A DNA stretch of 64,000 bases from Candidatus Hecatella orcuttiae (GTDB lineage Archaea > Thermoproteota > Bathyarchaeia > Hecatellales > Hecatellaceae), in NCBI GenBank assembly GCA_002011035.2, contig MTLY02000003.1, forward strand, positions 365,194-429,193, read 5' to 3'. Shown here in pieces: positions 11,820-47,600 of this stretch (position 1 is its first letter; each line of letters starts with the position of its first letter). The translations under genes were made by a program, and so were the position numbers. The notes beneath the pieces were generated by a model. The model had not been told where the DNA came from, did not search any database, and saw only the letters and a list, made by a program, of their open reading frames with translations.

Positions 11820-11851
11820 CGGTGTGGGGTGTTGAATCCTTCAGGCCAAGG

Positions 11852-11866
11852 CAACCTATTTATAAC
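11852..11866 (+). promoter_or_regulatory. Putative TATA box of ferritin-like gene
   Basis: CTATTTATAAC lies about 45 bp upstream of ATG 11906. This spacing places transcription initiation roughly 20 nt before the start codon, leaving room for the AAGGGGA ribosome-binding site. Confidence 0.45.
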
Positions 11867-11905
11867 AATCCGACCCTAATATTAGTTCTTAAAAAGGGGA
11901 TTTGT

Positions 11906-12403
11906 ATGGGTAAAACTTCAAGGGTCATAGCGGATTTAGACGTCGACGCCCTCATCGAGGAGTTGAACAGGGCTATAGCCGACGAATGGCTGGCCATCGC
12001 TCAGTACTGGTACGGTTCCCTAGCGCCTGAGCAGACCATGAACCCCGTGGTGAAGGAAGCCATCAAGAAAGCCTTGGACGACGAACGGGAGCACGTCAAC
12101 GAGCTGGCGGAGAGGATACTGGAGCTGGGGGGAACCCCCCTGAAGAACCCGGACCAGTGGAACCAGCTGGCCCACTGCAAATATCTGGAACCTCCCAACA
12201 AGCTCACCGACTTGAGGAAGTTTCTCCAAGATGCCTTAAAGGGGGAAGAATGCGCCATGAAGGCCTACAACGAAATCGCCAAGCTGACCTTCGGCAAAGA
12301 CCACATCACCTACCAGCTCATCGTGCACATCCTCAGCGAAGAAGCTGAGCATGAGGAAATGTTCGAAGACATGCTGGAAAACCTACCCTGCGACTTCAAA
12401 TAA
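11906..12403 (+). CDS. Ferritin-like diiron protein
   Basis: A 165-residue four-helix-bundle protein of the ferritin-like/bacterioferritin superfamily. Diiron ligands are recognisable in the helices: E in ADEWLAIAQYWY, EREHVNE (ExxH), GEECAMKAYNE and EEAEHEEMFED (the second ExxH). Members store iron or remove peroxide. ATG 11906 sits 5 nt after AAGGGGA; the frame is open further upstream, but that part has no family similarity. The neighbours (superoxide reductase, VIT1-type transporter) support an iron and oxidative-stress role. A run of ten Ts right after the stop probably terminates transcription. Confidence 0.85.
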   Translation: MGKTSRVIADLDVDALIEELNRAIADEWLAIAQYWYGSLAPEQTMNPVVKEAIKKALDDEREHVNELAERILELGGTPLKNPDQWNQLAHCKYLEPPNKLTDLRKFLQDALKGEECAMKAYNEIAKLTFGKDHITYQLIVHILSEEAEHEEMFEDMLENLPCDFK

Positions 12404-12408
12404 GCCAA

Positions 12409-12420
12409 CTTTTTTTTTTG
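12409..12420 (+). terminator. Poly-T terminator after ferritin-like gene
   Basis: Ten consecutive Ts begin 7 bp after the TAA of the ferritin-like gene. Archaeal RNA polymerase terminates at such T-tracts without needing a hairpin. Confidence 0.6.
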
Positions 12421-12456
12421 AAGACGGCGGAAGTCCACCGCTAGGAGGTGAAGGCT

Positions 12457-12762
12457 ATGGGTGAAGAAACCACCCACGAGAAGGTCTTGGAGGCCATGGC
12501 CAAGCTGAGCCCCGAGGAATTGAAGGCGAAAATGGAGGAAAGCCGGAAGATGTGCGAAAGCTTCTGCGGCGAATGCCCCACCTACACCGGTACGGGGGAG
12601 AAGGAACTGCTGTTCTGCATCCTAGGCCGAAGCAGTGTGATAAAAGAGCAGAAGGGTTGCCTCTGCACAGCGGGATGCCCTGTTCAGAAGAACATGGGCC
12701 TCCGATGGGACTACTACTGCATCCGCGGCTCAGGCAAAGAGCAGATGGCTAAAGAAAAATAA
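12457..12762 (+). CDS. DUF2769 cysteine-rich small protein
   Basis: A protein of about 101 residues. ATG 12457 lies 6 nt after a perfect AGGAGGTG; a GTG at 12448 overlaps that site and is unlikely. The core carries CESFCGECPTY, LLFCILGRS, KGCLCTAGCPV and DYYCIRGS, a set of eight cysteines that fits the DUF2769 family, widespread in anaerobic archaea. The cysteine spacing suggests an Fe-S or zinc centre. Function is unknown; its place after the ferritin-like gene hints at redox or iron handling. Confidence 0.7.
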   Translation: MGEETTHEKVLEAMAKLSPEELKAKMEESRKMCESFCGECPTYTGTGEKELLFCILGRSSVIKEQKGCLCTAGCPVQKNMGLRWDYYCIRGSGKEQMAKEK

Positions 12763-12802
12763 GTCAGAATTTTTTCGTATCCGCTCCTCCAGTTCGGAGG
12801 TC

Positions 12803-13633
12803 TTACCTGCTGGGGTTCAGCGCCTCGTCCATGCTTCCCGTCCTGTAGCCTGTTAGGTCTAAGGCCACATAACGGTAGCCCAGCTTCCTTAAGCCTTCCG
12901 CCACCCTGTCCATGAGGGCTTCGTCGAAGAAGAGGCGCCTCTCCTCTTTTCCAACCTCGATGCGAGCTATGCCTTGGTGGTCTCGAACCCTCAGCTGCTT
13001 GACTCCCACGGTTTTTTTGATGAAAACTTCAGCCTCCGCCACTCTCCTGAGGCCTTCGGCTGTAATCCTCTCCCCGTAGGGAAACCTGGAAGAAAGACAG
13101 GCCATCGACGGTTTTCCCGCGGTGGGCAGCCTGAGCATTTCAGCCAGCAGATAGACTTCCCTCTTGGTGATGCCTGCCTCGGCTAAAGGGCTGCGTACGC
13201 CTTCCTCCCGGAGGGCCAGCGCCCCAGGCCTGTGCCCTTGAAGGTCCTCAGCGTTGGTGCCGTCCACCACGGCGTCGAGGCCTTCCTCCCGGGCGATTTT
13301 TTTCAGGGCCTCTAGGAGCTGCTTTTTGCAGTAGTAGCAGCGGTTGGGAGGGTTGGCTGCGAAGCGGGGGTCGTCCAGCTCGTCGACCTTCACCACCCTG
13401 TGCCTGATGCCCAAGGCCTCCGCCACCTTTCGGGCTTCCTCTAACTCACCCGGGGGAAGAGTTGAGGAGTCAGCGGTCACGGCCAGCACCCTGTCGCCCA
13501 AGGCTTTCTTAGCTGTAGCGGCCACGAGGGAGCTGTCCACACCGCCTGAGAAAGCGACCACCACCCCCTTTAAAGCTTGGAGGTTTTTGAGCATTCCTTC
13601 GAATTTTTCTTCCAGCTGCCGGCTTTCCTCCAT
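12803..13633 (-). CDS. larE: LarE-type ATP-dependent sulfur transferase
   Basis: A 276-residue PP-loop protein with the pyrophosphatase loop FSGGVDSSLVAA. LarE adenylates pyridinium dicarboxylate mononucleotide and inserts sulfur while making the nickel-pincer cofactor of lactate racemase-type enzymes. Three cysteines, RCYYCK near residue 98 and ACLSSRFPYG near residue 178, match the variant in which a [4Fe-4S] cluster carries the transferred sulfur, rather than the single-cysteine sacrificial form. No larA, larB or larC is in the window, so the client enzyme is elsewhere or the transfer serves another pathway. Confidence 0.85.
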   Translation of the reverse strand: MEESRQLEEKFEGMLKNLQALKGVVVAFSGGVDSSLVAATAKKALGDRVLAVTADSSTLPPGELEEARKVAEALGIRHRVVKVDELDDPRFAANPPNRCYYCKKQLLEALKKIAREEGLDAVVDGTNAEDLQGHRPGALALREEGVRSPLAEAGITKREVYLLAEMLRLPTAGKPSMACLSSRFPYGERITAEGLRRVAEAEVFIKKTVGVKQLRVRDHQGIARIEVGKEERRLFFDEALMDRVAEGLRKLGYRYVALDLTGYRTGSMDEALNPSR

Positions 13634-15518: not shown

Positions 15519-15877
15519 CCGATCCGAGACAACTCTTCCTTGGTTTTTTGGATGTAGCGCTGGTAGAGGTTGGTTTTGCTGTAGCATTTTTTGCAGAGGC
15601 AGTAGGTGGGAATGTCCCGGCTGGGACAGGTGGCTGCGTACTCGCAGACACCGCAGGGGAAAACAGCGCCGCAGAGGTAGCAGGTCTGAGCGAACTCCAC
15701 CTCCTCCCCCAGCAGCGGAACGAGCAAAGCCTTGATCCTATCGAAGTTTTCCAAGTCTTCAATGTAGAAAGTCCGGGTTGCCCGGTCGTAGCCTAGGCCG
15801 GCTCTCATCAACTCAATGAACTTGTCCTTCCCCATGAAGGCCAGTTTAATGCCTGTTCGGGTTATCCTCTTCACCAT
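15515..15877 (-). CDS. Small cysteine-rich archaeal protein of unknown function
   Basis: A 120-residue protein. The C-terminal half has CYLCGAVFPCGVCEYAATCP and CLCKKCYSK: nine cysteines in CxxC-type pairs that probably bind one or two zinc ions or an Fe-S cluster. The N-terminal half contains RATRTFYIEDLENFDRIKAL. I do not recognise a named family. It lies just downstream of the RFC large-subunit gene on the same strand (13 bp gap), so it is likely co-transcribed with the clamp-loader genes. It ends in TAG. Confidence 0.65.
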   Translation of the reverse strand: MVKRITRTGIKLAFMGKDKFIELMRAGLGYDRATRTFYIEDLENFDRIKALLVPLLGEEVEFAQTCYLCGAVFPCGVCEYAATCPSRDIPTYCLCKKCYSKTNLYQRYIQKTKEELSRIG

Positions 15878-15890
15878 CGACGCTTCCCCC

Positions 15891-17180
15891 TCACCGCCGG
15901 GCTCCCCGCCTCCCAGCAGGTTTCCTCCCCCTAGCCGGCGCGGAGCTGGGCTTAGCGGCTTCCCCCTTCAAGTAGGCCACAGCAGCCTCGTCGAGGCCCA
16001 GCCAGGAAGCCAGCTGAGCGGCGGCGGCTTCTTTGCTGTGCTGGAACATCACCCTCAGGTAGGGGAGGAAGTCAGCGGCGGCCCTCCGGCGGGAAACATG
16101 GCACTTCACTCCTATCTTGGCGCTTATTTCCTTGATAAGCTCCCTCTGAGCCTTGGTCCTGCCGAGGATGAGAATCCGGCTGGGGGGAAACCGGTAGCCG
16201 GCTGGGGTGTATTTTCCCCTCCGCGCAGCGGCGACGCCCATGCTCATCTGCTCCAGCGCGTAGCTGAGAAGCCCCCAGTTTTGAGTCCGCTTAACCCTGC
16301 CGAAGAAGACGTCGGCGCGGGACAGCGCATCGTAGCCGGCTGCCAGGTCTTCAGGGTCGGTGAACTGGTAGGGGAGGTTCTCATGCACCGAGAGGTGGAG
16401 GAGGTCGCGGTCCACCTCCGCCTCCGCCTGAGCTCTTTTAGCGTAGAGGGGGTTGTTGGTCAGGAAGATTTCCCCCAAAACCTCTTGAACGGAGAGCTGC
16501 CGGTCTCTGGCGGTCAGCTTCTCCACGTCGACAGCCCGGAGGCTTCGGGTTTTCTCCGCCAAGGCTTGAAGGTCGTTGACAGCCGACCGAACGTCCCCCC
16601 GGCTTCGGGCTGCGATGAGCTTGAGGGCTTCCTCCTCCGCCTCCAAACCCTCCCTCCGGCAGATTTCCTCCAGCCAAGCCACCATGACCGGAGGCCTGAC
16701 CTTTTGAAACCTGATGGTGAGGCAGGCGTTCTTCAGCTCCCTCAGCCGCATGTCCGAAATGTCATTGGCCGTCAGGGCGACGGGAACCTTTGACTCCTCC
16801 AGCAGTTTGAGGATCGCCCCCAAGCCCCCTTGGTCTTCGCGGCCGTAGATGCCGTCCACCTCGTCCAGCAGGATGAGGACGCCCTTGGAGTCTGAGAAAA
16901 ACTGGAAGATGGAGGACTCCGACGCCGCATGGCCTGCGGTGCGCATGATCTTCTCCGCTGTTCTAGCGTCGCTGGCGTTCATCTCAATTAGGTCGTAGGC
17001 AGCTGCCTTGGCCGCCGCGTGGACGAGGGCGGTCTTCCCCACTCCTGGAGGCCCGTGGAGGAGAGCCGCCTTACCTCCCGGCTTCCATTTTTTCAGCCAA
17101 GACAGAAATTTGAGTTTAGCCTCCTCGTTGCCCACGACCTCCTCGGGGGTTTGAGGCCGGTGTTTCTCCACCCACATCAT
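15891..17180 (-). CDS. rfcL: Replication factor C large subunit
   Basis: AAA+ clamp-loader subunit that opens PCNA together with RfcS. From ATG 17180 (MMWVEKHRPQTPEEVVG) the protein has 429 residues, with Walker A GPPGVGKTALVHAAA, Walker B LILLDEVDGI and a basic C-terminal tail (KPAGRRGARR) as in other archaeal RfcL. The frame stays open upstream to 17597, but that stretch is the antisense-free shadow of rfcS coding sequence and has no family similarity, so it is excluded. It follows rfcS by 17 bp in one operon. Confidence 0.93.
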   Translation of the reverse strand: MMWVEKHRPQTPEEVVGNEEAKLKFLSWLKKWKPGGKAALLHGPPGVGKTALVHAAAKAAAYDLIEMNASDARTAEKIMRTAGHAASESSIFQFFSDSKGVLILLDEVDGIYGREDQGGLGAILKLLEESKVPVALTANDISDMRLRELKNACLTIRFQKVRPPVMVAWLEEICRREGLEAEEEALKLIAARSRGDVRSAVNDLQALAEKTRSLRAVDVEKLTARDRQLSVQEVLGEIFLTNNPLYAKRAQAEAEVDRDLLHLSVHENLPYQFTDPEDLAAGYDALSRADVFFGRVKRTQNWGLLSYALEQMSMGVAAARRGKYTPAGYRFPPSRILILGRTKAQRELIKEISAKIGVKCHVSRRRAAADFLPYLRVMFQHSKEAAAAQLASWLGLDEAAVAYLKGEAAKPSSAPARGRKPAGRRGARR

Positions 17181-35202: not shown

Positions 35203-36432
35203 TTAAATTCCAGCAGCTATTTTGGCTTCTGTCCATGCTTCAAAGTATTTGTCCCATATCGGTGGATCTGGGTGTTCCCAGTTGTAGAAGATTCCTTTCT
35301 CCAACAGGTCTTCAGGTTTATCCAATCCCAACAGTTTTATTATTTCGGGGTCCGCCAGTTCCCATCCTTTTACATTCGTGGATGCGTAATAGTAAACGTT
35401 GGTCAGAAATTGGCCTGTTCGAGGATCTAAGAAGGCATTTATGTAGTCATGGGCAAGCTCGTAGGTTCCTCTTTCTGGAGAGCCTTCTCCCACATTCATA
35501 GCGTAAGGCCAGATGAACAGAGCCTCTCCCGTCCTGTAATTGGCTCCAGGTGTAAGCCCCAGATAGACCACGTCCAAACCTTCAGCCAACCCTGCAGCGT
35601 ACAATTCCGTCCACATGGTTGCAATGGCTACTTCGCCTTCTTTAAGACTTGCAAAAAGCTCATACTGGTCATCGTAGATAATTTTTGCTTGCTTAAACGC
35701 TTTCATCACCGCATCTTTCCAAGCTTCTATCTGGTCATCAGTAGGATTTTTGAACTCTTCCACTGTAAACAATGCGTCGAACATAGGCCCAGCAATTTCA
35801 GAAGGAGCATCGTACATGGCCGTTCCTACCTCTGCATATTTTGGATCCCACAAGCACGACCAACTGTCAGGCTCTGGTAATCCCGCATCCCGGATTAGGT
35901 CTCTTCTGTAAATAATCGAAGTCATTCCCATATCCGTCACCAGCATATAGAGTTGGCCGTTGTGTCTGCCGTATTTTTCAACTAGTGCTTTAAAGAAAGG
36001 ATGTACATCTTGGTAGTTAGGTATCAAATCTAAGTCTATCGGCTCTAGCGCATCAAACTCCAAATATCTCTTGAAATGAGTCCAATAGCCGCCGAAGTTG
36101 GAGGCGTCAAACCTATCTCCAATCGCTATCCTTGCCAACGCTGAATCTTCATCAGGAAAAATGACGTGCGATACCTTTACATCCGGATGTTTTTCCCTAA
36201 ACGCAAGCCACAGTTCTTCAACATCATACCCAGCCCACGTCCAAACTATTATCTCATTAGCTTTCGGTGGTGGTACTGGAGTTGGCGTAGGAGTTGGTGC
36301 GGGTGTCGGGGTTGGGGCTGGAGCGGGCCTTGTGGCCTGCCAAGCGGCGTAGCCGCCCACACCGGCCACCACCGCCGCAACCACGGCGGCGATGCCGTAT
36401 TTCAGGGCCTTTCTTCGAGATTCATTACTCAT
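35203..36432 (-). CDS. potD: Pot-type ABC transporter solute-binding protein
   Basis: A 409-residue extracytoplasmic binding protein. The N-terminus has a twin arginine (SRRKALKYG) and a hydrophobic stretch of about 20 residues, then a Pro/Thr/Ala-rich linker (residues 33-57), so the protein is probably tethered to the outside of the membrane. The domain that follows begins EIIVWTWAGYDVEELW and resembles spermidine/putrescine-binding PotD/PotF (group D SBPs). It is last in the potABCD order but has its own TATA box. The ligand is predicted to be a cationic amine; the methyltransferase neighbours suggest a methylated one. Confidence 0.85.
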   Translation of the reverse strand: MSNESRRKALKYGIAAVVAAVVAGVGGYAAWQATRPAPAPTPTPAPTPTPTPVPPPKANEIIVWTWAGYDVEELWLAFREKHPDVKVSHVIFPDEDSALARIAIGDRFDASNFGGYWTHFKRYLEFDALEPIDLDLIPNYQDVHPFFKALVEKYGRHNGQLYMLVTDMGMTSIIYRRDLIRDAGLPEPDSWSCLWDPKYAEVGTAMYDAPSEIAGPMFDALFTVEEFKNPTDDQIEAWKDAVMKAFKQAKIIYDDQYELFASLKEGEVAIATMWTELYAAGLAEGLDVVYLGLTPGANYRTGEALFIWPYAMNVGEGSPERGTYELAHDYINAFLDPRTGQFLTNVYYYASTNVKGWELADPEIIKLLGLDKPEDLLEKGIFYNWEHPDPPIWDKYFEAWTEAKIAAGI

Positions 36433-36709: not shown

Positions 36710-37486
36710 TCAGGCTGATATTCTTTCGATCATCCTCATCAAAAACGCAAGTCCGATGGCAAAAGACAATATGATGGAGGACATAGCCGTTAAGATTGGC
36801 ACGAATTTTGGCAGTTTCATCAGCAAAGAGTAAATATACACAGGCGCTGTTTGCTCTGTCCCGGCAAGGAAAACCGCGAGGGCAACATCTTCCCACGAGA
36901 TGATAAAGGCTAAAATGGCGGCCACCGCCACTCCTGGCATTATAAGAGGCAACGTTACTTTCCGAAAAGTGGTGAATTTACCCGCGCCCAAATCCATGGC
37001 AGCCTCTTCAAGACTTATGTCAAGAGCTATGAATCTGGAGGTTAAGACCAAGGTAGTGTAGGGTATGGTGATTAGAATATGACCTATAATGATGACTATT
37101 AACGATGGGTTTACCCCCATTTTTAATAAAAAGGACATCAAACTGAAACCCATGATGATGTAAGGTGTCACCATGGGCATCAGCAAGAGCCCTGTGAAAA
37201 TTTTTTTCCCAGCGAAGTTTGTGCGCGCTAGTGCATACCCTCCGCAGATTCCGAAGATTACAGCGGCTCCCGTGGTAACGGAAGCGACCATGAGGGAGTA
37301 TTTAACGGCATTTATAGCGGCTGGAAATCGGAGAAGTTCGATGTACCATTTGAGGGTGGGGAAGTTTCTTAAGGGCAGAGTAGAAGTTTCGTTGAGGGAT
37401 AGCAGTAACAGTATGGCGATGGGGAAAAATGTGAGTATCAACAAGAATCCAAGTACGACAATGAACATTATACTCGATTTCGTCAT
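36710..37486 (-). CDS. potC: Pot-type ABC transporter permease (PotC-like)
   Basis: A 258-residue inner permease with six predicted membrane segments and the EAA loop EEAAMDLGAGKFTTFRKVTL, where the ATPase docks. The order and similarity to PotC place it as the second permease of the importer. Its start lies 1 bp after the potB stop. Substrate as for potD. Confidence 0.9.
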   Translation of the reverse strand: MTKSSIMFIVVLGFLLILTFFPIAILLLLSLNETSTLPLRNFPTLKWYIELLRFPAAINAVKYSLMVASVTTGAAVIFGICGGYALARTNFAGKKIFTGLLLMPMVTPYIIMGFSLMSFLLKMGVNPSLIVIIIGHILITIPYTTLVLTSRFIALDISLEEAAMDLGAGKFTTFRKVTLPLIMPGVAVAAILAFIISWEDVALAVFLAGTEQTAPVYIYSLLMKLPKFVPILTAMSSIILSFAIGLAFLMRMIERISA

Positions 37487-37487
37487 T

Positions 37488-38411
37488 TTAGAGACTCTCC
37501 ATCAGCTTCCTGAAGCCGATTCTCCGATAAAGTAGGAAGACCGCTATGAAAGTTATAATCAGCAGATAAACAGTGAAAGCCGCGGCTACATCCCACCTAA
37601 ACCCCTTGAGGAAGAAATCGTAGATCAGGTTTCCAAACAATATTCCGGTTCTGCCTCCCACTACTGCTGGAGCTATGAATTCTCCCATCGTCGGAATAAA
37701 CACGAACAAAACTGCTACGAAAACTCCGGGTAGACTCAGGGGAAAAGTAACTTTTAGGAATGTTGTAATGGGCGAAGCGCCCAGATCGTCTGAAGCCTCC
37801 AGCAAAACTCTGTCTATTTTTTCCAGCGACACGAATATCGGCAGAATCAACCAGGGAAACCATGTGGCAGTTAAAACCAGCCAAACAGAAAATAGGTTGT
37901 ACCCCAATAGTTTGATGGGCTCGCTTATTAAGCCGAAATATAGGAGCAATGAATTTATTACTCCTGTGCTGCCTAACATCAACCGCCAAGCCAGCAATAT
38001 CAGCATATAGGTGGCAAAATAAGGCGCTTGAAACAGGAATAGAACAGTATACTTATTTTTTAAAACTCTAAAGGCTATAAAATAGGCTACAACATACGCG
38101 AACAAAACGGATGAAGCTGTAACGGTAACCGCTATAAAAAACGTTCGAAGTAGAAGTCTGGCATAATCCGTTCGGATGAATAGTTTTGCATAATTGCTGA
38201 GTACGGGAAAATTAACAACAGTTCTTGTCACAGGACTTAATTCAGCGAAGCTCAAGATTAACACTGAAAAAACAGGAATGAAAAATACGATGATAATCCA
38301 TAAGTAAGTGGGTAGAACTAGCAAAAGATCTTTTAACCTTGAGTTGGTCTGTGCCGTGAAAAAATTCCGGAAAGATTTCTTTATACTCATATTACCACTT
38401 CCGTTCGACAA
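37488..38411 (-). CDS. potB: Pot-type ABC transporter permease (PotB-like)
   Basis: A 307-residue permease with six membrane segments and EAA loop LLEASDDLGASPITTFLKVT. The long N-terminal cytoplasmic segment and the large extracellular loop after the first helix are typical of PotB. It forms a heterodimer with PotC. It follows potA by 20 bp. Confidence 0.9.
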   Translation of the reverse strand: MSNGSGNMSIKKSFRNFFTAQTNSRLKDLLLVLPTYLWIIIVFFIPVFSVLILSFAELSPVTRTVVNFPVLSNYAKLFIRTDYARLLLRTFFIAVTVTASSVLFAYVVAYFIAFRVLKNKYTVLFLFQAPYFATYMLILLAWRLMLGSTGVINSLLLYFGLISEPIKLLGYNLFSVWLVLTATWFPWLILPIFVSLEKIDRVLLEASDDLGASPITTFLKVTFPLSLPGVFVAVLFVFIPTMGEFIAPAVVGGRTGILFGNLIYDFFLKGFRWDVAAAFTVYLLIITFIAVFLLYRRIGFRKLMESL

Positions 38412-38431: not shown

Positions 38432-39487
38432 CTAGGTTATCAACTTGGAGTCTTTCTTATTCCAACCGATTTTTACCTTCTCCCCAATTCCAAAAATGCC
38501 TTCCATGCCGGGACTGGGCGCTACAACTGAAATGGAGGAACCATTTTCCAGCAAAACTCTGTAGGTGACGACTCGGCCCTGATAATAGGCCTCTTTAACT
38601 TCTCCAGCGAATATATTATCCAACGCGTTTAACTTTCTTCCGATGAAAATTTTCTCCGGCTTGATGGAGACTAAGACTGATCCTTTGGATAGCTGACACT
38701 CAGGTGTGACGGTGATTTTCCCCAGATTATCGACTTCCACTGCCCCATTCTCATACCTCCCTTTGAAAACGTTAGTTCCCCCAATAAAATTAGCCACAAA
38801 CTCAGAGTTAGGCTGTTCATAAATCTCGATAGGCGAGCCGATCTGCATGATCTTTCCGGCTTTCATTACGGCTATTTTGTCGGACATCGTTAGAGCTTCT
38901 CCTTGGTCGTGAGTGACGTAGATGAAGGTAGTGCCGACTTCACGTTTAATTCTCTTCAGCTCGACAATCATTTCCTCCCTAAGTTTTAGATCTAATGGTC
39001 CCAAAGGTTCGTCTAGAAGCAATACAGTTGGTTTATTAACCAAAGCCCTTACAATGGCAATTCTTTGTTTTTCGCCGCCGCTCAATTGGCTTATTTTCCT
39101 CTTTTCATAGCCTGGAAGTCTAACGAGGTCTAACATTTCTTTAACTCTTGCTTTGATTTCGTTTTCCGGTATTTTTTTTATTTTTAATCCGAATGCTATA
39201 TTTTCATAAACGTTGAGGTGAGGGAATAGAGCTAAGCTCTGAAAGACTAGGTTTGTAGGCCTCTTAAAGGGGGGTACATCCGCCATAGGTTCTCCTTCGA
39301 TGAGTATCTCCCCTTCGGTTGGCTTCTCAAAGCCGCTGATCATTCTGAGTATAGTAGTCTTTCCACATCCGGAGGGCCCTAAGAGAGAAAAAAATTGTCC
39401 CTTTTCCACTTGAAAGGAAACATCGCTAACTGCAACAACATCTCCGAATTTCTTAGTTACGTTTTTCAGTTCAACATCGATCTTCAT
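38432..39487 (-). CDS. potA: Pot-type ABC transporter ATPase
   Basis: A 351-residue ATPase: Walker A LLGPSGCGKTTIL, signature ISQLSGGEKQRIAI, Walker B VLLLDEPLGPLD and the H-loop TYVTHDQ-like FIYVTHDQGEAL. The C-terminal 110 residues form a TOBE domain typical of PotA/FbpC-type importers, which can sense substrate or regulators. It is the first gene of the operon, divergent from the MtmB-like gene. The TATA box lies only about 22 bp before ATG 39487, so the transcript may be leaderless. It ends in TAG. Confidence 0.93.
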   Translation of the reverse strand: MKIDVELKNVTKKFGDVVAVSDVSFQVEKGQFFSLLGPSGCGKTTILRMISGFEKPTEGEILIEGEPMADVPPFKRPTNLVFQSLALFPHLNVYENIAFGLKIKKIPENEIKARVKEMLDLVRLPGYEKRKISQLSGGEKQRIAIVRALVNKPTVLLLDEPLGPLDLKLREEMIVELKRIKREVGTTFIYVTHDQGEALTMSDKIAVMKAGKIMQIGSPIEIYEQPNSEFVANFIGGTNVFKGRYENGAVEVDNLGKITVTPECQLSKGSVLVSIKPEKIFIGRKLNALDNIFAGEVKEAYYQGRVVTYRVLLENGSSISVVAPSPGMEGIFGIGEKVKIGWNKKDSKLIT

Positions 39488-39533: not shown

Positions 39534-39621
39534 AATCGGTCAAGAAAAAGGCCAAAACATGGAAAGATTAAAACAAACTATGTTCCATTAGTGTTTATGA
39601 AAAGTGGAGGATACGCCTCAT

Positions 39622-40992
39622 ATGATTCTTTCGTTAGATGAAATTTATAGGAGGACTGAAGATGGTCCGATAGTGGAGGAGGAATATTTCGACAAAAAGC
39701 TTTTGCCCAGAAAACTTCGAGAACTAGCAAAGGAATATGATATTAATTACAATCCGGAAGAGCCCGTTCCAACTGACGACAAGTTAGCTGACGACGTTTT
39801 TGAGGCGGGGAAAAAGTTACTGTGTGATGTAGGTATTCTGTGTGTGGACACAGGTAGGTTGATAAAGTTCTCTGAGGATGAAATTAAAGAAGGACTTAAA
39901 GCAGCTCCAAATAAAATAACCATCGGGCAAGGTGAGAGATCCCGAGAAATAACTGAGAGAAAAGCAGAAGACAAAAAGATACCTTGGCTTGTTCCCGGCC
40001 CCAGCGGAATGCCTATATCAGAGGACTTGGCTAGCGTGATAGCTCAATCCATCGTTCAAGAACCGTTAGCAGAAGGTTACTGGACTCCAACTATTACGAA
40101 ATATGGAGGGATGGAGGTAAAACTGCATTCTCCGTTGGAAGTTCTTGCATCAAGATATGAAATTATATCGGCCAAGGAGGGAGTCAGAAAGGCTGGTAAA
40201 GAAGGGCTTCCCATTGTTGGAGGAATGACAGGGTTAAGTCCAGCTGGATTCATCGCTTCTATATTTAATGGAGGATTTACGAGAGGGGACTGTCTTCTCG
40301 TAAGCTGCATGAACGAGTTGAAAATCAACTACGATATCATGACGAAAGTATGGTTCGTTTCAAAATGTAGCGACGTAAACCTGATGTATGATGCCACTCC
40401 TCTATTAGGCGGAATCGCAGGTGGACCGGAAGGCACTGCTTTAGTCTCAGTTGCTCAGGAAATAGAATGCCTGTTGCTGGGAGCAGACCTAAGCGGTGGT
40501 AACTCAATCGATATTTGGTCTGGAACAAGCTCAGGCAGGAAGACCATGTGGGCCTCTAATTTATTCTTGAACGCCATGAACCGGAACGTCAACGCAATAG
40601 AGTATTGCTACCACTTTGCCGCAGCAGGACCTTGCACAGAAATGCTTCTCTATGAGGGGGCAGCGAAAACCATAAGTGTGGTGGCTGCAGGATACGATTT
40701 TCACTGTGGTCCTTTGGCCTTGAGAGCTGGGAAGGAAGATTACATTTCTCCGTTAGAATTTAGGCTCAGCTGCGAAGTCGCCCATGCCATGGCTGGAATT
40801 AAAAGGGAAAATGCCAATTACTTGATAAAAGAATTATTAGCAAAGTTCGAAGATAAAATTCAAAAACCGCCTCTTGGTAAAAGCTTTACCGAGTGTATGG
40901 ACTTAACTACGCTTCAGCCTTCCAAAGAATGGCAGGCTATCTACGAGAAAGTGAAAAAAGAATTAGAAGACTTGGGAATAAAATTCAAATGA
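39622..40992 (+). CDS. MtmB-family methyltransferase with Ala in place of pyrrolysine
   Basis: A 456-residue homologue of monomethylamine:corrinoid methyltransferase MtmB (458 residues). Collinear features include a GPSGMPISED segment matching MtmB GPTGSPISED, NELKI, GGIAGGPEGT, AAGPCTEM and the C-terminal GKSFTEC. Counting back from the shared NELKI block without gaps, the Pyl202 position of MtmB falls on Ala208, an ordinary GCT codon at 40243-40245. There is no in-frame stop. Pyl binds the methylamine nitrogen, so this enzyme should act on another substrate or by another mechanism, as Pyl-free MttB relatives do with betaines. ATG 39622 follows GTGGAGG; GTG 39604 is less likely. Confidence 0.85.
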   Translation: MILSLDEIYRRTEDGPIVEEEYFDKKLLPRKLRELAKEYDINYNPEEPVPTDDKLADDVFEAGKKLLCDVGILCVDTGRLIKFSEDEIKEGLKAAPNKITIGQGERSREITERKAEDKKIPWLVPGPSGMPISEDLASVIAQSIVQEPLAEGYWTPTITKYGGMEVKLHSPLEVLASRYEIISAKEGVRKAGKEGLPIVGGMTGLSPAGFIASIFNGGFTRGDCLLVSCMNELKINYDIMTKVWFVSKCSDVNLMYDATPLLGGIAGGPEGTALVSVAQEIECLLLGADLSGGNSIDIWSGTSSGRKTMWASNLFLNAMNRNVNAIEYCYHFAAAGPCTEMLLYEGAAKTISVVAAGYDFHCGPLALRAGKEDYISPLEFRLSCEVAHAMAGIKRENANYLIKELLAKFEDKIQKPPLGKSFTECMDLTTLQPSKEWQAIYEKVKKELEDLGIKFK

Positions 40993-41053: not shown

Positions 41054-42397
41054 TTACGAACCCCGTATATTTTTGAGAGTGTCATAAGTAGCCTGTATGG
41101 TCTTTTGTATATCTTCCGGCTCATGCATCGCCGAAACCATCCACTCCTCAAACCATGCTGAACCGCTCGGTATTATTCCTCTATTCAACATGTTGATCCA
41201 GTATTTATTCCACATCGCCGCGTCGCAAGCTGAAGCTTCTCTGTAGTTTTTTGGAACCTTGTCCAATCCGAAGAAGATGCATCCCATCATGGTGCATCTG
41301 CCCACAGCGGCTTTTATACCTGTATCTGCTATGGCGTCTACAACTCCCTTGTACAACTCCTCGCCAAGGTTGTTAATTTTCGCATAGGCATTAGAGGTTA
41401 ATACCTTTTTCAGGCAGGCTAAGCCTGCAGCTGTTGAAAGAGGATTGGCGTTATAGGTTCCGTAGTGCACAACACCGCCCAAAGGAGTTATCATCTCCAT
41501 GTATTCTCTCTTTCCGCCGAACGCGGCCAGAGGTGATCCGCCGCCGATGGCTTTGGCGAAAGTTACCAAGTCGGGTTCAATACCGTAGAGTTGGCTTCCG
41601 CCCCCCTCAGCTAGATTGCATCCTGTCTTAACTTCATCCAATATTAACAAAATGCCATATTCATCGCAAAGCCTTCTAACTTCCCTGAAATAGTCTTTTT
41701 CCGGGGTTATGATCCCGCTGTTGGTAAGCACAGGCTCGGTTACTATCGCCGCAACTTCGTTTTCATGCTTTTTCAACACTCTTTCCAAGCCGTCGGCATC
41801 GTTAAAGTGAACCACCAAGGTCTGTTCGACGTTCTCCTTCGGTGTGCCCAGCGAGTCGGGAGTGGATGCAGGGTTATGTATCGATCCTAACAGGATGCGT
41901 CTTCTGGGTTTATCGCTTATCAGCAGCACATCGTTTGCTCCATGATAGGAGCCCTCCATCTTAACCACCTTAGTCCTCCCTGTGATTCCTCTGGCAAGCC
42001 TAACGGCATAGAAAGTTGCTTCCATTCCCGTGTTCGCAAAGCGGAGCATCTCAACATACGGGTACCTTCTCATTATCTCTCTCGCCAATTCATCGGCCCC
42101 TTCCCCTTGAAATCCCAGCAACGTCCCCCGCTCCGCCTGCTCTTTTATCGCTTCAACTATGATGGGGTTAGCGTGACCAGCAGTCATGGCTCCGTAGGCC
42201 AGACAATGGTCTACATACTCTCTTCCGTCTAAGTCCCATAGCTTGCCGCCCTTTCCCCTTGCCATGTAAAGCGGATAGGGCTTAAAGAATTGGATAGCTG
42301 TATTTACTCCTCCAGGAATAATCTGAGATAGTTTTTCGAAAAACGCCTTTGAAGCTGGGGTGTTTTTAATATATATATCCTCTTCAGCCAATGCCAC
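41054..42397 (-). CDS. Class III aminotransferase, glutamate-1-semialdehyde aminomutase-like
   Basis: A 447-residue PLP enzyme of the HemL/omega-aminotransferase group. The phosphate-binding NTGMEATFYAVRLAR, the Asp254 that binds the pyridine nitrogen (LILDEVKTG) and the Schiff-base Lys282 (VTFAKAIGGGSPLAAFGG) are all present. True HemL would be expected near haem genes; here it lies between two methylamine-type methyltransferases, so a catabolic role on an omega-amine or amino acid, giving an aldehyde or keto product, is more likely. Start GTG 42397 follows GGTGA. Confidence 0.85.
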   Translation of the reverse strand: MALAEEDIYIKNTPASKAFFEKLSQIIPGGVNTAIQFFKPYPLYMARGKGGKLWDLDGREYVDHCLAYGAMTAGHANPIIVEAIKEQAERGTLLGFQGEGADELAREIMRRYPYVEMLRFANTGMEATFYAVRLARGITGRTKVVKMEGSYHGANDVLLISDKPRRRILLGSIHNPASTPDSLGTPKENVEQTLVVHFNDADGLERVLKKHENEVAAIVTEPVLTNSGIITPEKDYFREVRRLCDEYGILLILDEVKTGCNLAEGGGSQLYGIEPDLVTFAKAIGGGSPLAAFGGKREYMEMITPLGGVVHYGTYNANPLSTAAGLACLKKVLTSNAYAKINNLGEELYKGVVDAIADTGIKAAVGRCTMMGCIFFGLDKVPKNYREASACDAAMWNKYWINMLNRGIIPSGSAWFEEWMVSAMHEPEDIQKTIQATYDTLKNIRGS

Positions 42398-42840: not shown

Positions 42841-44247
42841 TCAAACTTTCGAGAGTTTCTCGAGGCGTTCTACACAATTAATTTTGATGCCGAGCAGTTC
42901 AGCGATCCTAACTTTAGCTTCGAGTCCTTTCGCTGCACCCGGTAAACCAGTTATAACACCGATGTCAAGTTTTTCCCTAAGCTTTCTCATAGTAAACTCA
43001 TCACAAAGCTCTATTGAGGAGACACCTAGCTTTTTAGCGACGTAATCCTTCGCTTCAGGTAGTCTCATTTTCTTTTGCAACTGCATCCTACCAATCAGGT
43101 CGCCTGATGTTCTGATGCTGCCTATGCCACCGGCTACCAGATGCCCAATGGGCATTCCAATGCAGTCTCCGACACCCACCTAAATGCCATCGACGCCGGC
43201 TATCTCGATCATAGCTTTGTTCGCTCTAGTTACTGTATCCAACGGTGGTGTTTCTAACATGGGCACGCCGCCTACACCCATTCCCATGTTGGGGTGAACA
43301 GGGATAGTCGCTTCTCTCACGCATGCCTTGGTAAACGTAACCGCCCTGGAGAGATTCCATGGGAAAGTGAGGTGGGGTTTTGTATTTATCACAGGTCCAA
43401 ATATGTCGACACCCGCTTTTTCCGCTACTTTAAGTTGTTGATGCGGCCACATTCCAGCCAAACGTTCTCCTGCATATTTCAATTCCGTGTGAAATCCGTG
43501 TACAGCCTCGGTAGCCATACCCATCTGGACAGCTAGGTCGGGGTACACCTTTTTCAATGACTCTGTAGCCGTAAGGGCTGCATAAAAGTCAGGATCTCCC
43601 GCCGCTCCTACTGTATCGATATTTATTCCATCCACGCCTACTCTTCTGAGATGTTTAGCTACATATATTATGGCATCATGACATTCTCGAGCAGCGCCCT
43701 CCATAGATTTCCTCGCTTCGTCGTTCTTTCCTTCTCTGATCAGAGAGATCGGTTCAGGCCATTGACCATCAGGCTTATAGAAATAGCCTAAGTTGGGCAT
43801 AGCCATGAATTCTAGAGGACTGATCGACGTGTGCAGAGTATTGTGGATAACATTCGCCAAATAGCTCACTATTACCTTTGCAGGCTTAAAGCTTCCATCC
43901 GATTCAGGAAATTGTAGTATATCAAGTCCAAGCACCCTTTCAGACAGCGCTCCTTGAGCAATGGAACGTTCAATCGGCATACCTAATCCACTAGTGCCAG
44001 AGTCAATCCAGAAAGTCGAGCCTCCTGCATCAGCGGACAGGACGACCTCGCATCCATGTTTTACAGCCACAACCTTATTGGCGTCGATGATAATTTCATA
44101 TAATGTTTCCAGATCTTCGCCGGTTAATTCGGGTATTTTCGCCCTTTCTGCAGCGTCTTTTGAACCCAATTCTAGGTCGTCTTTGATCTGTTTACCCGTC
44201 ATGGTGATCAGTCTACCATCGCCTCTTCTCGTCAAATGTTCTGGCAT
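42841..44247 (-). CDS. mtbB: Dimethylamine:corrinoid methyltransferase MtbB with in-frame UAG (pyrrolysine)
   Basis: Transfers a methyl group from dimethylamine to its corrinoid protein. The gene spans 468 codons, with a TAG at codon 356 (43180-43182) between EIAGVDGI and [13 protein letters not shown]. Both halves align end to end with MtbB, whose pyrrolysine occupies residue 356 in the same context, and lengths agree to within a residue. The true end is TGA at 42841. ATG 44247 follows AAAGGAGGTGAG. Before the [25 protein letters not shown] and [15 protein letters not shown]. It is the second gene after mtbC (36 bp gap). Function needs a pyl system encoded elsewhere. Confidence 0.93.
43180..43182 (-). 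other. In-frame amber codon decoded as pyrrolysine (predicted)
   Basis: Reading the minus strand gives GAT GGC ATT TAG GTG GGT GTC, that is D-G-I-Pyl-V-G-V. In MtbB proteins the same place reads DGI-Pyl-IGVGD. Coding continues in the same frame for 112 further codons with full family similarity, so this is recoding rather than frameshift decay. Confidence 0.88.
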
Positions 44248-44283: not shown

Positions 44284-44934
44284 TCATTTTTTTAGAAGGC
44301 AAGTGCGGGATGCAAGGAGTCTTTTAGCTTTAACTACAGCATCCATTGCGTCGGCACCCCATTCGTCGGCGCCGATCTCTTTTGCATGCAATTCGGTTGT
44401 TGCTCCTCCGCCCACCATTACTTTAACGTCATCACGAACTCCTGCTTCCTTCAGAGCATCAATTACCTCTCTTTGGGCGATGGCGGTTGTGGTCATGAGA
44501 GCGGAACAACCTACAAATGCGGGTTTGTGCTTTTTAACTGCCTCTACAAATTTTTCAGCAGCAACATCTCGACCTAGATCGATGACATCGAATCCTTGAG
44601 CTTCCAGCATCGTGGCCACTATACTCTTACCGATGTCATGAATGTCGCCTTCAACTGTACCGATTATGAACTTGGCTTTTTCACCTCTTTTCTTCCTAGG
44701 CACTTTTTTAAGCAAAACGTCCGCAACCTTCTTGATGGCCTCGGCAGAAAGAACTACTTGTGGAAGAAATATCTCTGACCTACCGTATAGATCTCCTACC
44801 TGCCTGATAGCCTCAGAGGCATGGTCCAACGCCCTTAAAGGTTCAATACCTGCTTTCAGACAAGCCTCAGCGATTTTAACAGCGCCCTCAACATCTTGAT
44901 TTAAGATCGCATTATAGAGCTTATCTAGTTCCAA
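44284..44934 (-). CDS. mtbC: Methylamine corrinoid protein (MtbC/MtmC type)
   Basis: A 216-residue cobalamin protein that accepts methyl groups from the methyltransferases. The N-terminal helical cap domain (residues 1-85) precedes the B12 domain with EGDIHDIGKS, where Asp97, His99 and Gly102 form the DxHxxG motif and His99 is the lower cobalt ligand. Later motifs are GCSALMTTT and VMVGGGATT. It lies 36 bp upstream of mtbB, the known mtbC-mtbB arrangement. It may also serve the nearby MtmB-like enzyme, since no second corrinoid gene is visible. Start TTG 44934 follows AGGGGGTG. Confidence 0.9.
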   Translation of the reverse strand: MELDKLYNAILNQDVEGAVKIAEACLKAGIEPLRALDHASEAIRQVGDLYGRSEIFLPQVVLSAEAIKKVADVLLKKVPRKKRGEKAKFIIGTVEGDIHDIGKSIVATMLEAQGFDVIDLGRDVAAEKFVEAVKKHKPAFVGCSALMTTTAIAQREVIDALKEAGVRDDVKVMVGGGATTELHAKEIGADEWGADAMDAVVKAKRLLASRTCLLKK

Positions 44935-45327: not shown

Positions 45328-45750
45328 TTATGCGCCCAGTTTTTTAACTGTTAATGCGCCTGTGGGGCACCATTCAACACATGCCGGAGAACCTTGACAT
45401 AGGTCGCATATCAGCGGTTTTCGACGTGGTTCATTCATCCTTATCGCCGAGTATGGACATTCTTCAACGCACAATTTGCAGCCTGTGCACTTTTCCTCAT
45501 CGAGTATAACAGCCCCGGTTTTCTCATCTTTTTGGAGTGCTTTCACAGGGCAGACTTGAATACAGGTGGCTTCTTCGCATTGAATGCACGCAACAGGATA
45601 CACGAGAGTAGGCGGATAGCTTGTTGCAATGTGGATTCTGGATACTTTCGGATTAAACACTGAGGCTTTTTTGAATGAGCAGATAAGCTCGCATGTTTTA
45701 CAGTCGGTGCATTTTTGGCCATCAATCAACAAGCGGATGGAGATAAGCAT
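45328..45750 (-). CDS. 4Fe-4S ferredoxin-type electron carrier (AOR partner)
   Basis: About 140 residues with four Cys clusters: CTDCKTCELIC, CIQCEEATCIQVCP, CTGCKLCVEECP and CDLCQGSPACVEWCP. This set of four cubane-binding motifs is that of HycB/NrfC-like subunits that accompany aldehyde:ferredoxin oxidoreductases. It should take electrons from AOR to ferredoxin or other acceptors. It begins 8 bp after the AOR stop (AAGGAGGTG lies just before ATG 45750, with unusually short spacing; TTG codons five residues later are alternatives). Confidence 0.85.
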   Translation of the reverse strand: MLISIRLLIDGQKCTDCKTCELICSFKKASVFNPKVSRIHIATSYPPTLVYPVACIQCEEATCIQVCPVKALQKDEKTGAVILDEEKCTGCKLCVEECPYSAIRMNEPRRKPLICDLCQGSPACVEWCPTGALTVKKLGA

Positions 45751-45758
45751 CACCTCCT

Positions 45759-47600
45759 TCACGTTACTAGGTCGGTAAGTTCCAATTCGATAAGCTTCTC
45801 CCTCGTAGGTTCGCCTTCTCGGTTCCACCCTCTCAGTTCATAGTACTCATCGAGCAGCTTAGTCATGTCGTCGGAGGTAACTTTGTGCCCCTTGGCCGGC
45901 CCTGAAGGCAGAGGTTCCCCGGTGAACCGCTTGGGTAAACAGTCGTCTTTCCGCGTAAAGCCTTCGCGAATGTTAAACATGCGGATCAAATTCCATACAC
46001 GCTCACCTAGCTTCATAAATTCATCTGCACCTCCCTTCCACCCGGTGGCCAGCGACAACAACTCCGCATAGTGCTCAGGTTGAAGGCCTGTTCGGCTGAA
46101 ATCGCAGCAGGGAAGCGTGCAAACAGCCGTAAGCCAATCCTGCTCCCACTTGACGATTTCAGCCTTACCCTTGAGCGAAAGCCGCTCCACGGTGCCGGAG
46201 GGTCCGGGGATTCCCTCAACCTCGTACGCGATCGGCCATCCCCGCTCATGGCAGCCGCCCCTGTCAGCTGTGGCTAGGGCCAGCGCCATTCCCGGGGCTC
46301 CCCTGGGAGGCCACGCCGGCGTCTCCAGCCCCTTGATGCTGACAGCTAAATCTAACGCTCGGCCGCCTATCTTTTCCGAAGCTTGCTTTACGCCTTCAGC
46401 CATCAGGTCGCCTATCCCTTCTCGGCGGGCTATTCTTTCAACAAGCTCAAGCACAGCTTTGGAGTTCCCAAACTTCGGGTTAACCCCTTGGAAATCCTCC
46501 GAGGTCAGAATTCCCTTTTCAAAAAGCTCCATGAAGAAACCTATGACGCCGCCGGTGGATATGGTATCTAACCCCAGTTCATCGCACAGGTAATTTGCGT
46601 AAGCCACAGCGTCCAGATCCGTGATGCCGCAGTTGGCTCCCAGCAGGCCGGTGGTTTCATATTCCACACCGTCCACCACGGTACCCGCGTAGGGGCCTTT
46701 CTTTATCATCAGAAGGTGGCCGCATCGAATGGGGCAGGAGAAGCAGGCAACCTTTCTAAAGCGGACGGCCTTGGACTGAATTCTGCCTGAAAGCTTTTCC
46801 GCCCCCCGGATGCTTCCGTCTTGAAAGTTTCTTGTCGGGAAGAAACCTTCAGAGTTGGCGAAATCCACAGACCCCGCGGTTCCGTATTCCGTCCACGTCG
46901 CTCGCACAGCTTCGCTTTCAACCAGAGCCTTGTGCAGCTTTCTCGCAGCTTTCACAAATTCCTTTGGATTGGCCACCTCCACAGGCTTTGTTCCTCGAAC
47001 GGCCACAGCCTTCAGATTCTTTGAGCCCATCACGGCTCCTAGGCCTCCCCTCCCCGCCTGCCGGTAGTCACAGCCGACGCACGCAAACCTGACAAGTCTC
47101 TCTCCCGCCGGTCCGATGCACGCTGTTTTCACCTCGTTGTCGCCGAGCTCTTTTTTGACGGCAAGGGCGGTCTGGGTTATGGTAAGACCCTGAAGGTGGC
47201 TGGCGTTTTTGATTTCCACATGCTCATTGTCGATCCAGATGTAGCTGAGTTTTTCAGCCTTCCCCGTGAGCACCAAGGCATCGTAGCCGGCGTATTTTAG
47301 TTCCTGGCTGAAATAGCCCCCAACATAGCTGTCGCAAAAGGTTCTCGTGAGGGGGGACTTGGAGACCACGATGCCCTTCTGAGCTGGAGCCAGCGTACCT
47401 GTCAAAGGCCCTGTGCTGAATATGAATATGTTTTCAGGGCCAAGGGGATCAGCCTTGGGGGGTAGCTCCTTATACAATATCGCTGCTGCTTGCCCTTTTC
47501 CACCGACCAGTCTCCTAGCAACAGATAAATCCAATGGCTGCCGGAGTATTCGCCCTGTGGTTAAGTCTATGCAAAGAATATTCCCCTGATAACTATCCAT
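45759..47600 (-). CDS. Aldehyde:ferredoxin oxidoreductase
   Basis: A 613-residue tungsten/molybdenum bis-pterin enzyme that oxidises aldehydes to carboxylic acids. It has the N-terminal GGKGQAAAILY and GPLTGT segments, GGLGAVMGSKNLKA binding pterin, the [4Fe-4S] motif CFSCPIRCGH around residue 290 and the last cluster cysteine in CTLPCCDFS. With the Fe-S protein gene behind it, it forms a two-gene unit. In this block it could oxidise the aldehyde made by the adjacent aminotransferase; that is inference. Substrate range of the AOR family is broad. Confidence 0.9.
   Translation of the reverse strand: MDSYQGNILCIDLTTGRILRQPLDLSVARRLVGGKGQAAAILYKELPPKADPLGPENIFIFSTGPLTGTLAPAQKGIVVSKSPLTRTFCDSYVGGYFSQELKYAGYDALVLTGKAEKLSYIWIDNEHVEIKNASHLQGLTITQTALAVKKELGDNEVKTACIGPAGERLVRFACVGCDYRQAGRGGLGAVMGSKNLKAVAVRGTKPVEVANPKEFVKAARKLHKALVESEAVRATWTEYGTAGSVDFANSEGFFPTRNFQDGSIRGAEKLSGRIQSKAVRFRKVACFSCPIRCGHLLMIKKGPYAGTVVDGVEYETTGLLGANCGITDLDAVAYANYLCDELGLDTISTGGVIGFFMELFEKGILTSEDFQGVNPKFGNSKAVLELVERIARREGIGDLMAEGVKQASEKIGGRALDLAVSIKGLETPAWPPRGAPGMALALATADRGGCHERGWPIAYEVEGIPGPSGTVERLSLKGKAEIVKWEQDWLTAVCTLPCCDFSRTGLQPEHYAELLSLATGWKGGADEFMKLGERVWNLIRMFNIREGFTRKDDCLPKRFTGEPLPSGPAKGHKVTSDDMTKLLDEYYELRGWNREGEPTREKLIELELTDLVT

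Follow-up and report, generated by a model that had tools for sequence, protein, structure and literature searches.

Pyl-free members of the methylamine methyltransferase family MtmB have been known for years, as sequences (PMC13044021). A published MtmB tree of 1,061 sequences contains many proteins lacking pyrrolysine (Pyl), all of them of unknown function except MtqB (PMC13044021). MtqB of Methanococcoides methylutens Q3c, published in March 2026, demethylates tetramethylammonium and choline and acts little on monomethylamine, and its function was called the first for any Pyl-free MtmB (PMC13044021). A conserved Met and a conserved Cys are reported in the MtqB group, at positions that are not mappable from the text (PMC13044021). 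The MttB proteins, by comparison, show no significant sequence homology to MtmB (PMC9842639). Since Pyl-free MtmBs and MtqB were already published, the protein described here (m3) cannot be the founder of the new parallel branch that the original prediction had in mind.

The window, which is the whole 64,000-nucleotide stretch analysed from Candidatus Hecatella orcuttiae, holds m3 among the following features.

35203..36432, minus strand: substrate-binding protein with a twin-arginine-like signal (SBP_bac_8; weak PotF match)
36710..37486, minus strand: PotC-like ABC permease (NF007047, 1.4e-38, below cut-off)
37488..38411, minus strand: PotB-like ABC permease, from its place in the PotA-B-C run (counterpart at the same place in locus L011, phmmer 2e-22)
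38432..39487, minus strand: PotA-like ABC ATPase, divergent from m3 (TIGR01187 at its cut-off)
39622..40992, plus strand: m3, Pyl-free MtmB homologue of 456 residues (PF05369), with Val199 at the Pyl202 column
41054..42397, minus strand: class-III aminotransferase, HemL/GntE-like paralogue, convergent with m3
42841..44247, minus strand: dimethylamine methyltransferase MtbB with Pyl (TAG in frame just before 43179; matches Rfam PYLIS_2 at 43083-43182)
44284..44934, minus strand: MtbC-type corrinoid protein (profile matches), nearest candidate methyl acceptor
45328..45828, minus strand: 4Fe-4S ferredoxin-like partner of the oxidoreductase
45759..47600, minus strand: aldehyde:ferredoxin oxidoreductase (AFOR_N, AFOR_C)

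It was found by ORF analysis that m3 is a real and full-length frame, which starts at the ATG at 39622 and has a stop codon ending at 40992. An in-frame GTG at 39604, upstream of the ATG, is a second possible start, and no in-frame TAG occurs in the ORF (39622-40992, plus strand). MtmB is the only Pfam assignment (PF05369, E 1.5e-103; 347 bits, where the curated cut-off is 25; profile positions 5-450 of 450), covering the whole length, while an NCBIfam search with m3 gave no assignment. Identity to M. barkeri MtmB1 (PDB 1L2Q/1NTH) is 31% (phmmer E 4.6e-68, residues 7-455). The original prediction had named four kept motifs, and all were located in the sequence: NELKI (231), GGIAGGPE (263, the GGxAGGxE motif), AAGPCTEM (334), and GKSFTEC (419). 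Its assignment of m3 to the MtmB family was right, and m3, as a PF05369 protein with no TAG at the Pyl site, belongs with the Pyl-free MtmB homologues. A single-sequence structure prediction for m3 gave a pLDDT of 33, too low to be of use.

The residue at the Pyl site is not the one predicted. An Ala (Ala208, codon GCT) had been placed exactly at this position by counting 24 residues back from NELKI. However, the residue of m3 that lines up with Pyl202 of M. barkeri MtmB, without gaps, is Val199 (codon GTT, 40216-40218 in the window), both in the phmmer alignment and in a MAFFT alignment of m3, its 11 own MtmB paralogues, and 1L2Q. The stretch of m3 that holds Val199 is GLPIVGGMTGLSPAG. Gly195, which corresponds to MtmB Gly198 and is invariant in 21 family members, lies four residues upstream of the site. 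The spacing from the site to NELKI is 32 residues without a gap in both m3 (231-199) and MtmB (234-202). Ala208 lies nine residues downstream of Val199 and aligns with MtmB Gln211; it was ruled out as the Pyl-equivalent site by the two alignments and the NELKI spacing. That the protein is free of Pyl was nevertheless predicted correctly, since it has Val199 at the site and neither the in-frame TAG nor the Pyl202 of a Pyl-dependent MtmB. In the eleven own Pyl-free paralogues, the Pyl column reads Val, Phe, Leu, Ile, Gln, Ile, Ile, Gly, Gln, Trp, and Pro, which indicates that the position varies freely between them.

Four further residues of MtmB, Glu229, Glu259, Gln333, and Tyr335, presumably surround Pyl in the structure. 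They are kept together in all of the four Pyl-MtmBs collected, while the full set is found in none of 69 Pyl-free sequences; single residues survive in some of these. In the alignment, m3 has Leu226, Asp257, Tyr330, and Phe332 in their place, with Tyr328 nearby, and thus lacks the residue set of a Pyl-dependent MtmB. With its acidic and aromatic residues, the pocket, as read from the alignment, may be of a type able to bind quaternary ammonium. Monomethylamine is an unlikely substrate for m3, since this is a full-length Pyl-free paralogue with an altered active-site set and the genome encodes a Pyl-MtmB besides. The new substrate suggested in the original prediction is supported to this extent, though not as the basis of a new branch.

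In the phylogenetic tree, which is unrooted as to Pyl gain versus loss, the Pyl-MtmBs form one clade (support 100/100), and m3 stands alone on a long branch (1.0-1.2 changes per site) inside a set of 16 to 18 rows (98/95). Its exact placement is unsure because the branch is long, and its best identity to any other sequence is about 40%. The AU groups were chosen after the first tree had been inspected, so that the following p-values are lenient. Joining m3 to the Pyl clade was rejected at p 0.02, a result of moderate weight given the long branch, and m3 thus falls outside the clade of Pyl-dependent MtmBs. The separate Pyl clade and this test speak against m3 being an MtmB that lost its Pyl only recently. 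A Pot-linked subfamily of m3 and its paralogues m4/m5 was weakly rejected (p 0.027), so that the Pot linkage does not come from a single ancestor of just these genes; a clade of m3 and the proteins of G008 and G014 alone was also rejected (p 0.003). An orthologue search with m3 in named genomes turned up a single hit, short and weak, in an assembly of Prolixibacteraceae, and no orthologue was found in plasmids. m3 is a deep, isolated member of the already known Pyl-free MtmB group.

The host genome (1.75 Mb in 3 contigs) has twelve MtmB homologues, one with a TAG codon for Pyl and eleven Pyl-free. The host decodes Pyl: a tRNA-Pyl with a CUA anticodon and the genes for PylS, PylB, PylC, and PylD lie in one run (L009 1364-2860 and 3862-7950), adjoining a TAG-interrupted MttB-like gene and the Pyl mtmB. 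This PylS is of the short form (280 aa). A large ATP-binding protein of the same locus was considered as RamA but is RLI/ABCE1. TAG is not reserved for Pyl, since it ends many ordinary ORFs (the stop of 38 of the 143 ORFs of at least 200 aa). A second mtbC-mtbB pair (L010 14797-16520) adjoins an ammonium transporter (L010 12782-14371). No match to McrA was found in the host genome, which has two MtrH homologues; this would fit methyl transfer to a pterin carrier without methane.

None of seven members of the same family (G001-G007), several of whose genomes are incomplete, has an MtmB match at E <= 1e-60. With twelve homologues in the host against none in these relatives, the set was probably either acquired by transfer or lost in the relatives. 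MtmB homologues occur in 46 of the 398 sampled genomes of the phylum, and a TAG-bearing MtmB in only three. Among the copies listed, no genome except the host has more than three MtmBs, these counts being lower bounds (four of the twelve host copies are among those listed).

The original prediction correctly described a Pot-type importer divergent from m3. The gene for the PotA-like ATPase faces away from m3 across a gap of 116 bp with the GTG start or 134 bp with the ATG. As the Pot models score at or below their curated cut-offs, "Pot-type" means family likeness rather than specificity. Past m3, the gene order is aminotransferase, Pyl mtbB, mtbC, ferredoxin, and aldehyde:ferredoxin oxidoreductase. 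The aminotransferase is not taken as the HemL of this genome, which has a better HemL at C3:665888. The co-encoded corrinoid protein that had been expected is missing from the immediate vicinity; no corrinoid gene lies directly beside m3, and the nearest, mtbC, is 3.3 kb off on the opposite strand. A Pot-type importer together with an aldehyde:ferredoxin oxidoreductase also lies beside m4/m5 (L011) and beside a relative in G014 (L038), and one or both are near Pyl-free MtmBs at L011, L038, and L072. A class-III aminotransferase is near an MtmB at L076 as well. The recurrence of the Pot linkage at m4/m5 and at the G014 relative makes an imported methylated amine, as had been suggested, a candidate substrate.

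I put at about even chances that m3 is a corrinoid-dependent demethylase whose substrate is an N-methylated amine brought in by an importer. The divergent ABC system would import the amine, whose N-methyl group, quaternary or cationic in some other way, would most likely be pre-activated by its positive charge. From m3 the methyl group would pass to a corrinoid protein in the Co(I) state, perhaps the MtbC encoded nearby. An MtrH-type enzyme would then load it onto a pterin carrier, and it would serve as a source of carbon or energy rather than of methane. The demethylated amine may be converted by the class-III aminotransferase and then by the aldehyde:ferredoxin oxidoreductase. Pyl would be dispensable because the charge already activates the substrate methyl, as with the quaternary amines of Pyl-free MttB relatives and with MtqB (PMC13044021). 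I infer the catalysis, the substrate class, the corrinoid partner, and the downstream steps from the Pot-type importer, the aminotransferase, the oxidoreductase, and the nearby corrinoid protein, all of which fit a demethylase of an imported amine; the proven activity of MtqB on tetramethylammonium and choline lends support. Counting against this are the Pot scores and the lack of an adjacent corrinoid gene, unlike most Pyl-free MtmBs, and the aminotransferase and mtbBC, being on the other strand, may be a unit separate from m3. A further weakness is that m3 has no close orthologue, its best relative being at 40%, through which to trace a conserved neighbourhood.

The other paralogues provide a different lead, which bears on them and not directly on m3. 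The host has six genes for PnrA-like binding proteins (Bmp, PF02608), and four of these have a Pyl-free MtmB no more than about 5 kb away (one each at m7 and m8, two at m11). On the catabolic side, m8 and m11 are flanked by amidohydrolases of the deaminase type, while genes for dihydropyrimidinase, carbamate kinase, and PreA/PreT are found by m6/m9. In the host loci L011-L016 (G000:C1 near 5-12 kb, 181-188 kb, and 510-534 kb), Pyl-free MtmBs lie in such nucleoside-type contexts, with PnrA-like proteins, nucleoside-type permeases, amidohydrolases, dihydropyrimidinase, PreA/PreT, and corrinoid genes. By coordinates, 14 other genomes, from three families, have a PnrA-like gene within about 10 kb of an MtmB (G063, G072, G079, G086, G120, G132, G183, and G212; G082, G089, G096, G110, and G196; and G187). 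For G100, G138, and G189, the PnrA-like gene that is listed is on a different contig from the MtmB. No PnrA link was seen at the loci examined in family f46. Across the three families, a corrinoid protein and a Pyl-free MtmB face a PnrA-type ABC importer (L072, L073, L090, L075, L081, L088, L091), the MtmB being a tandem pair or followed by MtaB (L088) or a like gene (L081, L091). At the loci examined in family f33 (G082, G110, G196), the MtmB is followed by a gene that was identified as MtaB in L088 of G196. Elsewhere, a Pyl-free MtmB and a corrinoid gene lie by an ECF-type transporter with a CbiQ-like component and a double ATPase (L074 and L087, in G134 and G237). Just 3′ of a Pyl-free MtmB, L037 has a gene (11830-13011) for fused Fae and OMPdecase domains (formaldehyde-activating enzyme/hexulose-phosphate synthase-like), and L038 has one (15813-17021) that starts like this fusion, also just 3′ of a Pyl-free MtmB.

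The pattern of PnrA neighbours suggests that some Pyl-free MtmBs act on methylated nucleosides or bases, for which the cationic 7-methylguanosine and 1-methyladenosine would be candidates. It is possible, though I hold it rather doubtful, that the Pyl-free MtmBs of the host radiated into N-demethylases with different substrates, a large share of them, together with their corrinoid proteins and PnrA-type importers, for methylated nucleosides or nucleobases, and m3 and m4/m5 for Pot-type imports. The Pyl site would then be one of the positions that changed. No paper linking methylated nucleosides to corrinoid demethylation was found in the literature searched by words.

Is m3 itself an enzyme of this kind? 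Demethylation of a nucleoside, a nucleobase, or some similar methylated N-heterocycle would agree with the nucleoside-type genes beside m7, m8, m11, and m6/m9 and with the grouping of m3 with that paralogue clade in the set of 16 to 18 rows. However, the importer of m3 is Pot-type rather than PnrA-type and no nucleobase genes are near it, so I regard this as improbable. I see a similarly small chance that m3 is an MtqB orthologue in a non-methanogen, with tetramethylammonium or choline as substrate. MtqB is the only Pyl-free MtmB of proven function (PMC13044021), and in m3 Cys229-Met230 precede NELKI and aromatic residues lie near the site, which may recall the conserved Met and Cys of the MtqB group; the long isolated branch of m3 and the absence of an adjoining MtqC-like gene point the other way.

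Two readings are far less probable. The branch length of m3 and its lack of an adjacent corrinoid gene could be those of a non-catalytic paralogue, either decaying or regulatory, but the frame is open and full-length, and the invariant Gly and Glu residues and the AGPCTEM and GKSFTEC motifs are kept, which makes this quite unlikely. A monomethylamine methyltransferase working without Pyl is hardly credible: m3 shares the family and length of MtmB, and MtqB has slight monomethylamine activity (PMC13044021), yet the host also encodes a Pyl-MtmB, along with tRNA-Pyl and PylSBCD, and m3 differs at each of the four Pyl-linked positions of the active site.

Pyl-free MtmBs are numerous, yet only the function of MtqB is known. 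The host set of eleven Pyl-free paralogues and a single Pyl-MtmB, with varied importers and catabolic neighbours, yields testable substrate predictions, and through it one can ask what purpose Pyl serves. That Pyl-free MtmBs are repeatedly paired with nucleoside-type importers points to anaerobic use of methylated nucleosides or bases as methyl donors; if true, this would be a new corrinoid-dependent recycling route for methylated nucleosides.

Compared with M. barkeri MtmB1, m3 matches PF05369 over the full length, aligns without a gap between the Pyl site and NELKI, and shares the GGxAGGxE, AGPCTEM, GK.F.EC, and NELKI motifs, but differs in Val199 for Pyl202, in the absence of TAG, and in Leu/Asp/Tyr/Phe for Glu229/Glu259/Gln333/Tyr335. 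Its likeness to the Pyl-free MttB relatives of the MtgB type (COG5598; glycine betaine and others), which are corrinoid methyltransferases for quaternary amines, is by analogy only, since they belong to a different family (PF06253). The Pyl-free MtmBs of the same phylum share the family, the absence of TAG, and the loss of the Pyl-linked residue set, although most of them adjoin a corrinoid gene and many lie by a PnrA-type nucleoside importer. MtqB, compared here by description, is likewise a Pyl-free member of the MtmB family; it comes from a methanogen and has its cognate MtqC encoded next to it (RS04770/RS04775 in Q3c), whereas m3 belongs to a host without McrA and adjoins the PotA-like and aminotransferase genes.
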